Below are positions 28,929 to 35,715 of a stretch of DNA of 37,940 nt, piece after piece. Where the stretch lies: contig CANJNZ010000043.1 in NCBI GenBank assembly GCA_947476045.1, positions 1-37,940 of the forward strand. The letters run 5' to 3'. This DNA comes from Chthoniobacteraceae bacterium. Its GTDB lineage: Bacteria; Verrucomicrobiota; Verrucomicrobiia; Chthoniobacterales; Chthoniobacteraceae. The notes beneath the pieces are model-generated. The model was not told where the DNA came from. It worked only from the letters and a program-made list of their open reading frames with translations, and ran no database searches. A program made the translations under genes and the position numbers. The stretch's first letter is position 1. Each line of letters opens with the position of its first letter.

Positions 28929-30098
28929 ATGGCAAAGAAAAACCTGAACATCGGCGTCGTCGGCTACGGCTTCATGGGCCGCACCCACGCAAACGCATAC
29001 CACAACGCGGCGAACTTTTTTGATCTCCCGCTCAAACCCGTGCTCAAGGCCGCTTGCGGTCGCGACGAGGCGAAGCTGAAAGCCTACGCGGACAACTGGG
29101 GCTTTGAGAGCACGGAAACGGATTGGAAAAAGCTAATCGCCCGGAAGGACATTGATGCGATTGACATCTGCACGCCGAACAACAGCCACGCGGAAATCGC
29201 GATGGCGGCGGCGCGCGCGGGCAAGATGGTGCTTTGCGAAAAGCCGCTCTCGCTCGACGGCCCCGAAGGCGAAGAGATGGTGAAGGTGATCGAAGCCGCG
29301 AAGGTGCCGAACACGGTTTGGTATAATTATCGCCGCGTGCCTGCTGTGACGCTGGCCAAGCAGATCATTGATTCCGGAAAGCTCGGCAAAATTTTCCACT
29401 ACCGCGCGAACTTCCTCCAGGACTGGACGATTTCCGCCGACCTCCCGCAGGGCGGCGCGGGCCTGTGGCGTCTCGACGCGAAGGCGGCAGGCAGCGGCGT
29501 GACGGGCGATTTGCTCGCGCACTGCATTGACACGGCAATCTGGCTGAACGGCCCGCTGACGGACGTGACCGCGATGACGGAGACTTTCATCAAGGAGCGC
29601 AAACACACACTGAGCGGCAAGGTGGAGAAGGTGAAGATTGATGACGCCTGCACGTTTATGGGGCATTTCGCCAACGGCTCGCTCGCGCTCTTCGAGAGCA
29701 CGCGCTACGCACGCGGCCACAAGGCGCTCTACACACTCGAAATCAACGGCGAGAATGCGAGCATCCGCTGGGATCTCCACGACCTGCACCGCCTGCAATA
29801 CTTTGATTACAGCGACGAGGGAATTGTGCGCGGATGGCGCAGCATTCACGTGACCGACGGCGACCAGCCTTACATGAAGAACTGGTGGGTGCCCGGCCTG
29901 CAAATCGGTTACGCGGAATCCTTCACGCATCAGGTCGCTGACTTCATCCGCGCCGTGGGTGCCGGCAAGCCCTGCTCGCCGACTTTCCGCGAAGCGCTGG
30001 AGACGCAGTATGTCTGCGACGCAGTGCTCGCCTCCGCGAAATCCGGCAAGTGGGTCAAGTGCAAGCACTCCACAAAAGCGAAGGCTGGCAAGAAGTAG
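28929..30098 (+). CDS. Gfo/Idh/MocA family oxidoreductase
   Basis: The 389-residue protein has the family's N-terminal Rossmann fold with [18 protein letters not shown] at about residues 6-23. It has the signature [18 protein letters not shown] followed by CEKPLSLDG, whose Lys is the conserved active-site residue. The C-terminal half is the substrate-binding sheet domain, with [16 protein letters not shown] containing the family His/Asp pair. Such enzymes oxidise sugars or inositols with NAD(P). The family is very abundant in Verrucomicrobiota, so the substrate is not predictable, though the divergent rhamnulokinase hints at sugar use. It has no export signal. Two terminator hairpins follow. 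Confidence 0.93.
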
Positions 30099-30120
30099 CC
30101 TGCTGCTTCATTTTACAAAA

Positions 30121-30152
30121 AAAGACCGCTCCGCGAGGGGCGGCTTTTTTTT
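30121..30152 (+). terminator. intrinsic terminator of the oxidoreductase gene
   Basis: CCGCTCC (30126-30132) pairs with GGGGCGG (30137-30143) around GCGA, with one G-T pair. A run of eight T follows (30145-30152) and an A run precedes it. It lies 23 bases after the stop at 30098. Confidence 0.85.
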
Positions 30153-30181
30153 CGCCGAAGCGCCGGGATCTTTCCCGGAAA

Positions 30182-30219
30182 ATCAAAAGGCCGACCCCTT
30201 GCGAGGCCGGCCTTTTGAT
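30182..30219. terminator. bidirectional terminator hairpin
   Basis: ATCAAAAGGCCG (30182-30193) is perfectly complementary to CGGCCTTTTGAT (30208-30219), a 12-base stem with a 14-base loop. The A and T runs lie within the stem on both sides. It sits between two convergent genes and can end both transcripts, especially the minus-strand small Cys-rich gene. Confidence 0.8.
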
Positions 30220-30237
30220 GATTGCTAGCTTTTCAGC

Positions 30238-30426
30238 TTACTTCTTTGGGTTGCACTTCTCGCAGACCTTGCCTTCCGCAACTGCTTTCACGCAGCAGGG
30301 ATGTTCGCAAGCCTTGCCGGCGGCTTTCGCCTTTTCGCAGCATGTTTGCTTGGCTTCTTCGGCATACGTGGCGGTTGACGCGACGAGCGCGAAAACGCCC
30401 GCGAGGATGAGTTTGGTGATGTTCAT
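30238..30426 (-). CDS. small secreted cysteine-rich protein (62 aa)
   Basis: The product begins with a signal peptide (MNITKLILAGVFALVASTATYA). The mature part of about 40 residues is rich in Lys, Ala and Cys. It consists of two near-repeats of the pattern C-C-x-K-A-x-A-x-G-K-x-C-E: TCCEKAKAAGKACEH and then PCCVKAVAEGKVCEK. It ends CNPKK. Eight Cys and one His (CEHPCC) suggest a small metal-binding or disulfide-bonded periplasmic protein. I know of no described function, and the link to metal is inference. The ATG at 30424-30426 is preferred over a TTG three codons upstream. A strong hairpin terminator follows its stop. Confidence 0.8.
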   Translation of the reverse strand: MNITKLILAGVFALVASTATYAEEAKQTCCEKAKAAGKACEHPCCVKAVAEGKVCEKCNPKK

Positions 30427-30491
30427 AGGACGCAAGAATTAGCACTCGGCCATTTGCCACGCAACTGGTATCTCGCTCATATTCTCCAGCC

Positions 30492-31754
30492 ATGAACCGC
30501 TACTTCTACGCCATGCTCATCGTGACAGCCTTCGCCACGCAAGCCGCCGACGACTGGCCGCGCTTCCTTGGGCCCGGCGGAAACAGCACCACCACGGCAA
30601 AAGGGCTGCCGCTCGAATGGAAGGAAGGCAAGGACGACAAGCCGGGGCGCAATTTGAAATGGAAAACGGCGCTACCCGGCGAGGGCTGGTCGTCGCCGGT
30701 CTGCGGCGGTGGTCGCATCTATTGCACAATGGCGCTCGATGAGGGACATTCGCTGCACGCGCTCTGCATCGCACTTGCGGATGGAAAAATCCTATGGGAC
30801 GTCGAGGTTTTTAAAAACGAAGTTCCGCCTCCAAAACATAAACGCAACAGCTACGCCTCCCCCACTCCGCTCCTCGAAGGCGATCGTCTTTATGTCACCT
30901 TCGGCACGATGGGCACCGCTTGCATTGCAGTGAAGGACGGCACGAAATTTTGGGAGAACCGCGACTTGCAGTGGGATCAGCAAAACGGCCCCGGCGGCAG
31001 CATGAGCGGTTTTGGTGATTTGCTGCTCATCCCATGCGACGGCGCGGATGTGCAATACGAGGCTGCACTTTCAAAAAAGGACGGCAAACTCGTGTGGAAA
31101 AGCGAGCGCAGCGCAAAGCCGGACCTCCAGCAAAAGCCAAAGGATATGCACAAGGCCTATGGCACTCCTGTCGTATTCGATGTGGATGGCAAACCCGTGA
31201 GCATCACCATGGCTGCGGAGCGCCTCTACGCGCTCGACCCGAATACCGGGAAGGAATTGTGGCATATAGTCACGCCCGGTTTTTCCAACGTCCCGCTGCC
31301 AGTCAGCGATGGCCGCCAAATTTACATCAGCACTGGCTTCAACAAGGGAGAGATGTGGGCCGTCAAACACGCAAGCGCTACTGGTGATGCGACCAGCACG
31401 CATGTCGTGTGGAAACAAACAAAGGGAGCGACCACGGAATCCACTCCTGTTGTCACCGGCAACCGTCTCTACTACGTGAACAGCGGCGGCATCGCCACCT
31501 GCCTCAACACCGCCGACGGCAGTGTCGTGTGGCAGGAACGCCTCGGCCCGGACTTCTCAGCCACGCCGCTTATCGCCGATGGGCGAATCTATTTCTTCGA
31601 CGCCTGGAACAAGTGCTACGTCGTCGAGCCCGGCGACACTTTTCGCCTCCTCGCCACCAATCGTCTCGAATCCGGCTGCATGGCATCACCCGCCGTCGTT
31701 GGAAAAGCGCTGATCGTCCGCACAAAAACGCACCTTTACCGGATCGAAGAATAG
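30492..31754 (+). CDS. PQQ-like beta-propeller repeat protein, exported
   Basis: The 420-residue protein has a signal peptide (MNRYFYAMLIVTAFATQA). The mature N-terminus, DDWPRFLGPGG, is characteristic of planctomycete/verrucomicrobial PQQ-like propellers. Tryptophan-docking-type repeats recur, such as LADGKILWDVEV, KDGTKFWENRDL, KDGKLVWKSER, PNTGKELWHIV and ADGSVVWQERLG. These fit a BamB-like eight-blade propeller without a proven cofactor. It probably acts in the periplasm as a binding or assembly protein, and no catalytic residues can be named. It is divergent from the small Cys-rich gene with a 65-base gap, and it ends 4 bases from the converging pfk gene. Confidence 0.88.
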   Translation: MNRYFYAMLIVTAFATQAADDWPRFLGPGGNSTTTAKGLPLEWKEGKDDKPGRNLKWKTALPGEGWSSPVCGGGRIYCTMALDEGHSLHALCIALADGKILWDVEVFKNEVPPPKHKRNSYASPTPLLEGDRLYVTFGTMGTACIAVKDGTKFWENRDLQWDQQNGPGGSMSGFGDLLLIPCDGADVQYEAALSKKDGKLVWKSERSAKPDLQQKPKDMHKAYGTPVVFDVDGKPVSITMAAERLYALDPNTGKELWHIVTPGFSNVPLPVSDGRQIYISTGFNKGEMWAVKHASATGDATSTHVVWKQTKGATTESTPVVTGNRLYYVNSGGIATCLNTADGSVVWQERLGPDFSATPLIADGRIYFFDAWNKCYVVEPGDTFRLLATNRLESGCMASPAVVGKALIVRTKTHLYRIEE

Positions 31755-35638: not shown

Positions 35639-35715
35639 CGGGCTGTGGCTCAGCTTGGTAGAGCGCTTCGTTCGGGTCGAAGAGGCCGTGGGTTCGAATC
35701 CCACCAGCCCGACCA
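35639..35715 (+). tRNA. tRNA-Pro (anticodon CGG)
   Basis: The full cloverleaf can be drawn. The acceptor stem CGGGCTG pairs with CAGCCCG (35705-35711). The D arm is GCTC/GAGC. The anticodon stem CTTCG/CGAAG encloses TTCGGGT, giving anticodon CGG at 35673-35675. The T arm GTGGG/CCCAC encloses TTCGAAT. The discriminator A and CCA end are encoded (35712-35715). It reads CCG proline codons. Confidence 0.97.

Follow-up and report, generated by a model that had tools for sequence, protein, structure and literature searches.

The window analysed here, a 37,940-nucleotide stretch of DNA from a Chthoniobacteraceae bacterium, contains a very short gene whose product stands an even chance of being a small exported metallothionein-like protein, that is, a putative metal-thiolate protein, judging from its sequence and a structural model. 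In this scheme, the Sec machinery would export the protein, each of its two CC pairs would open a short helix, and the cysteine following each pair would close a turn after a glycine. Seven thiolates and one imidazole would provide eight ligands for soft metals (Cu(I) or Zn(II) being the likeliest), held in two sites or in a small cluster, and the cell would use the protein to buffer periplasmic metal. The features of the gene and of its immediate surroundings are collected in Table 1.

Table 1 Features of the gene and its flanking regions (window positions).
Feature	Position	Strand	Basis
CDS, 62 aa (62 codons), ATG start, stop codon 30238-30240	30238-30426	minus	ORF, family, dN/dS
Predicted signal peptide, residues 1-22 (MNITKLILAGVFALVASTATYA)	30361..30426	minus	simple rule; cleavage site by eye
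Mature protein, residues 23-62, 7 Cys	30241..30360	minus	sequence; AlphaFold2 model of residues 22-62
Repeat 1, residues 29-43: CCEKAKAAGKACEHP	30298..30342	minus	offset-identity analysis
Repeat 2, residues 44-58: CCVKAVAEGKVCEKC	30253..30297	minus	offset-identity analysis
Hairpin and short T-run, probable intrinsic terminator	30185..30216	minus	strict hairpin rule, arms read from sequence
Promoter-like region: TTG-like around -38 to -36, T at -18 from ATG, CCT just before ATG	30427..30466	minus	upstream alignment

A tiny protein made of two cysteine repeats

A reading of the DNA made earlier from its letters alone (hereafter, the sequence-only reading) had described a tiny secreted protein with two near-repeats, and most of this description held. 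The hydrophobic N-terminus ends in T-Y-A and is followed by ~40 mature residues, in which we found the announced CC-x-K-A motifs (CCEKA and CCVKA) and the histidine in CEHPCC, together with CEKCNP. The cysteines had been overcounted as eight; the true number is seven (residues 29, 30, 40, 44, 45, 55, and 58). They define the core pattern CC-x9-C-x-H-x-CC-x9-C-x2-C, a tandem repeat of 15 residues in which 6 of the 11 non-Cys positions agree between the two units (P = 0.002 when the non-Cys residues are shuffled). The same periodicity characterizes the relatives: over 33 distinct cores, mean identity at offset 15 was 0.493, against at most 0.21 at the other offsets from 3 to 19. All 36 family members conformed to a simple signal-like rule of our own (a hydrophobic stretch preceded by a basic residue and followed by a small-x-small site), used in place of a trained predictor and without negative control. 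From this N-terminus we infer that the protein is exported via the Sec machinery.

A conserved family in the Verrucomicrobiota

The family as collected comprises 36 distinct proteins from Verrucomicrobiota records and genomes of the window's phylum; their cores, each 30 residues long, fall into 33 distinct sequences. A peptide-pattern search of one genome per species of bacteria and archaea, using six patterns all taken from the window protein, yielded at least 14 loci, and all matches listed were named Verrucomicrobiota. A profile made of 21 cores (A2) matched 12 of 387 genomes of the phylum and 20 of 197 genomes of the order, the window's own genome being counted in both sets. In the order set 19 matches were full-length, and a partial one with an internal stop (G499) was excluded from the full-length carriers, which number 30 genomes in the two sets together. 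Within the window's genus, the gene occurs in 9 of the 10 genomes listed. The own genome has a single copy and G459 has two, the second of which (L061:6006-6197) is diverged, has Lys in place of the first Gly, and adjoins a relative of the PQQ propeller. Copies were also seen in two MAG records labelled Prosthecobacter debontii (L003 and L006, a doubtful label), with 91% and 82% identity to the window protein, and in a record labelled Akkermansia muciniphila (L005), with 74% identity. Searches of plasmids with one relative as query gave no match, and none of 216 stretches of viral contigs fitting the pattern was confirmed as belonging to the family. A plasmid search with the PQQ propeller retrieved three archaeal plasmids only and no Planctomycetota.

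The cores fit CC-x9-C-x3-CC-x9-C-x2-C without gaps; the Cys pattern was required for core extraction, and all full-length matches of the searches made without pattern also pass, with only the partial G499 failing. Beyond the cysteines, all 33 distinct cores have Ala at core position 5, and 31 have His at position 14, which is Lys in one of the remaining cores and Asn in the other. Position 9 is Gly in 31 cores and position 24 in 28. The core is under purifying selection, with dN of 0.01-0.12, dS of 0.12-2.98, and dN/dS of 0.02-0.26 against all eight relatives tested, each of these values being rough as it rests on 30 codons. These ratios and the 36 distinct relatives indicate that the window ORF is a real gene and not a chance reading frame. 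At the C-terminal end, 7 of the 36 members have CxxCG and 4 have CxxCxGxG, the window protein having neither. One member (L015:4001-4327) has a core without His and a long Lys-rich C-terminal tail that contains several His.

Database and structural comparisons

The window protein matched no Pfam family up to E = 10 and had no convincing match in NCBIfam. For 25 relatives, Pfam listed ten families, none of them above its own cut-off in the six members examined singly, and the list contained no metallothionein, CHCH, Cox17, or DUF2282 (Buf1). Pfam contains a bacterial metallothionein model, and the description of the pattern as unlike classical metallothioneins agrees with these results; likewise, no match to a characterized family emerged from the libraries searched. 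The best Pfam match of the relatives, DUF6520 (E = 0.00016), was rejected: it concerned 2 of the 25, whose scores of 22.4 and 14.3 bits fall short of the cut-off (25.4), and both alignments run from the signal peptide on. One member with a zinc-knuckle-like end weakly resembled the zinc-binding protein Anti-TRAP, at E = 0.02 and with 15.3 bits, below the cut-off of 32. The best PHROGs matches of two members, at E = 0.016 or worse, were also rejected. A sequence-profile search of the PDB gave no match. In the open-licence literature, the matches listed included no account of the family, and four motif strings found no match.

AlphaFold2 modelled the mature part (residues 22-62, 41 residues) from 35 sequences with a mean pLDDT of 85 and a pTM of 0.53. 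Local pLDDT was 72 for model residues 1-10, which include the first CC, and 90, 93, and 87 for residues 11-20, 21-30, and 31-40. Two helices are predicted, at model residues 8-14 and 22-29, the first beginning at the CC and the second one residue ahead of the CC. The full-length model had a pLDDT of 68 and matched no fold in the PDB. The single PDB chain retrieved with the mature model (E = 8.4, probability 0.01) was rejected as a chance match, and a second structure aligner aligned no PDB chain. The AlphaFold model contains no metals.

Gene neighbourhood and transcription signals

As the sequence-only reading had noticed, the gene is divergent to a PQQ-like propeller, a PQQ_2 gene located 65 bp upstream. 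It had also been credited with a hairpin terminator of its own, and a hairpin with a T-run, probably an intrinsic terminator, is indeed present. A strict rule demanding a hairpin and T-run within at most 120 bases after the stop codon detected one just downstream of the gene and at 27 of the 36 loci including the window, compared with a mean of 0.54 and at most 4 of 36 loci in dinucleotide shuffles; a looser rule detected 35 of 36, a count without shuffle control. A consensus scan of 30050-30560 left this minus-strand hairpin unlisted, probably because its T-run is too broken for the scan rule; its one terminator entry was that of the neighbour, on the plus strand at 30126-30143, with 1.0 terminator-like sites expected by chance in this interval. 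At the second copy of G459 (L061), neither the strict nor the looser rule detects a terminator. On the promoter side, an ungapped alignment of 18 upstream regions of closer relatives, chosen from the 36, gave a weak promoter-like consensus, with ~0.9 bit at positions -36 and -18. On the minus strand, the scan of 30050-30560 gave no sigma-70 site. Since the promoter-like signal lies at a fixed distance from the ATG, it may hint at a very short leader. The window gene has no evident ribosome-binding site before its ATG, where CCT stands instead.

Neighbouring genes at the 36 loci were called by a simple ORF rule, and their families were assigned with Pfam on one member per group, for a total of 20 proteins. 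A same-strand gene of at least 120 aa lies within 100 bases on one side or the other at 8 of the 36 loci (L014, L015, L058, L062, L063, L079, L080, and L087) and is absent from the other 28. The upstream, divergent neighbour is related to the PQQ_2 propeller at 6 of the 36 loci and to a secretin at 7, all in one group of close relatives; at 8 loci a Gfo/Idh relative is found downstream and convergent. The neighbours vary between groups and include DXP synthase, RecR, DJ-1/PfpI, Ppx/GppA, a ParA-type ATPase, an integrase, and DUF1501, among others, 5 of the 20 scanned having no Pfam family at E <= 1e-5. HupE/UreJ (L062) and a Cu2_monoox_C domain protein (L080) each occur once beside the gene. 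Among the 20 neighbour proteins, the secretin of 7 loci is the only recurring candidate for a metal, redox, or secretion partner. Gene neighbourhood was considered as a clue to function and set aside; no functional link is drawn from it.

A different regularity concerns tRNA genes. Of the 10 loci in genome family f11, 7 have a tRNA-Gly(ccc) gene within ~30-210 bases upstream, on the same strand in six of them (L078, L081, L082, L084, L085, and L086) and on the opposite strand in L079. As the gene follows the tRNA, it may be co-transcribed with it in this group. No adjacent tRNA gene is present at 21 further loci, most of which belong to the window's own group. A tRNA-Cys gene is located 279 bases downstream in L014. 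A single tRNA gene was detected in the window itself, a tRNA-Pro (cgg) at 35639-35715 on the plus strand, which is retained in the close relative L059.

Redox setting and competing explanations

The redox setting bears on whether the seven thiols would remain available for metal. The own genome, 96.8% complete, had no match to the Pfam profiles VKOR, Thioredoxin_4, DSBA, and DsbB, which matched 3, 9, 8, and 6 of 14 control genomes, respectively. Among the 30 carriers, Thioredoxin_4 was found in 8 and VKOR in 3 (22 and 27 without), and among the 19 carriers of the window's order in 1 and 0; the DSBA and DsbB figures cover, among carriers, the own genome only. As an enzyme-driven disulfide system is often undetectable in carriers, the thiols could stay free. 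In the three VKOR carriers (G099, G169, and G181), a Thioredoxin_4 match lies less than 1 kb from the VKOR match; the two share their strand and open-frame length and are probably fusions. The family is thus also present in genomes that have an oxidising system. A published tree includes a VKOR from the genus Chthoniobacter (PMC4555120), so that the group as a whole is not devoid of this enzyme. The occurrence of the family both with and without a visible oxidation system weakens the reduced-thiol argument and does not remove it.

The composition of the core bears on the same question. An odd number of invariant cysteines (seven) cannot all pair inside one chain, and a His accompanies them in 31 of the 33 cores; both observations favour metal binding, as do the zinc-knuckle-like C-terminal ends of some members (one with the sub-threshold match to Anti-TRAP), the His-containing, Lys-rich tail of the His-less L015, and the four oxidation profiles missing from the own genome. 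Against it are the replacement of the His by Lys or Asn in two cores, the lack of any metal gene recurring among the 20 neighbour proteins, and the three carriers with VKOR and Thioredoxin_4. The odd Cys number also fits three disulfides plus one free Cys, or a dimer. In fact, the protein might be a disulfide-stabilized mini-protein, an explanation to which we give somewhat less than one chance in three, in which intramolecular bridges would hold two short helices in the manner of the mitochondrial twin CX9C helix-hairpins (the units here being C30-x9-C40 and C45-x9-C55) and one Cys would be spare for dimerisation or thiol exchange, with a role as secreted peptide, redox partner, or envelope component. 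The predicted exported compartment and the short two-helix AlphaFold2 model would suit such a protein, as would the twin CX9C spacing of the 33 cores (the pattern was part of the extraction, and full-length unpatterned matches share the spacing) and the presence of VKOR in 3 and Thioredoxin_4 in 8 of the 30 carriers. However, the Cys count is odd, just four residues separate the two CX9C units, the Pfam lists of the window protein and the 25 relatives contain no CHCH/Cox17 family, the own genome has none of the four oxidation profiles, and most carriers have neither Thioredoxin_4 (22 of 30) nor VKOR (27 of 30).

Two further explanations are far less probable. A secreted bioactive peptide, antimicrobial or signalling, would agree with a small, probably exported, Cys-rich product often encoded without a same-strand partner gene, but the core is under purifying selection, the same core occurs across several families of the phylum, and the 20 neighbour proteins show no recurrent gene for an exporter, a protease, or immunity, which makes it very unlikely. 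Slightly less probable still is a bufferin-like precursor whose Cys, first modified by an MNIO (DUF692) enzyme, would chelate copper once the protein is exported. The small size, the signal-like N-terminus, and the conserved Cys motif are those expected of such a precursor, and PF05114, present in 41 of the 197 genomes of the order, was found in 5 of its 19 full-length carriers (G390, G436, G480, G496, and G530). Nevertheless, the 14 other carriers have no PF05114 match (6 of them are under 90% complete and 8 are not); they include the own genome, at 96.8% completeness. In addition, none of the 20 neighbour proteins is an MNIO, and the window protein has no Pfam match whatsoever up to E = 10. 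As most of these 19 carriers are devoid of PF05114, the family can, on the evidence of the genomes examined, do without MNIO. The earlier suggestion of a small secreted peptide precursor, in its MNIO-modified form, is thus disfavoured by the missing PF05114, and that of a redox shuttle found no specific support. The remaining suggestion, a periplasmic metal buffer with putative metal binding, is the leading explanation, favoured by the Cys/His conservation and the signal-like N-terminus.

Comparison with known systems

Several families of small or Cys-rich proteins offer points of comparison for a metal-thiolate protein. The bacterial metallothioneins of the SmtA/MymT type are cytoplasmic. They share with the window protein the very small size, and the Cys and His ligands and metal-thiolate cluster (both proposals in our case), and differ from it by the signal-like N-terminus, the helix-repeat architecture, and the absence of any family match that distinguish the latter. 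The twin CX9C (CHCH) proteins are helix-hairpins of the mitochondrial intermembrane space; one of them, Cox17, has a CC copper site. The similarity is here in architecture: two CX9C units (in 33 of 33 distinct cores, the pattern being part of the selection), a helical and small protein, and a Cys beside the first unit. In contrast, the window protein is bacterial, has four residues between the units, and matches neither CHCH nor Cox17.

The periplasmic copper storage proteins of the Csp1 type are Cys-rich, like the window protein, and exported, as is predicted for the latter, with thiolates holding the metal (again, as proposed here). The gonococcal Csp binds 15 Cu(I) per monomer and serves in copper protection (PMC12510493). 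Csp is a four-helix bundle, whereas the window protein is a predicted two-helix unit of 40 residues with 7 Cys and no Pfam match; instead of a Cys-lined four-helix bundle, the 41-residue model has two short helices. The bufferins are exported Cys-motif peptides modified by MNIO, some of whose genes stand alone, with 4 Cys in Buf1 and 6 in most Buf2 (PMC12452194). These RiPPs (Buf1/DUF2282 and Buf2) resemble the window protein, whose own export is a prediction, in being small, endowed with a Cys motif, and sometimes stand-alone. Yet the Cys pattern of the latter is different (7 Cys in a CC-x9-C repeat), its own genome has no MNIO match, and it has no Pfam match; in particular, the Buf1 (DUF2282) profile was matched neither by the window protein nor in the list for the 25 relatives.

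Implications for the Verrucomicrobiota

At the level of the whole family, we tentatively propose, as a possibility well short of even odds, an undescribed Verrucomicrobiota family of exported, unmodified metallothionein-like proteins in which two 15-residue CC-helix-Gly-turn-Cys repeats would hold a metal-thiolate cluster, their free thiols acting as a metal buffer where, as in many carriers, Dsb/VKOR is undetectable. If the protein is oxidised instead, bacteria would have a twin CX9C protein in it, and the question becomes what oxidises it. If it binds metal, it would represent a very small natural metal-thiolate scaffold working outside the cytoplasm without the MNIO modification of bufferins, and it may provide a hint of how Verrucomicrobiota without a visible disulfide pathway handle periplasmic copper or zinc.
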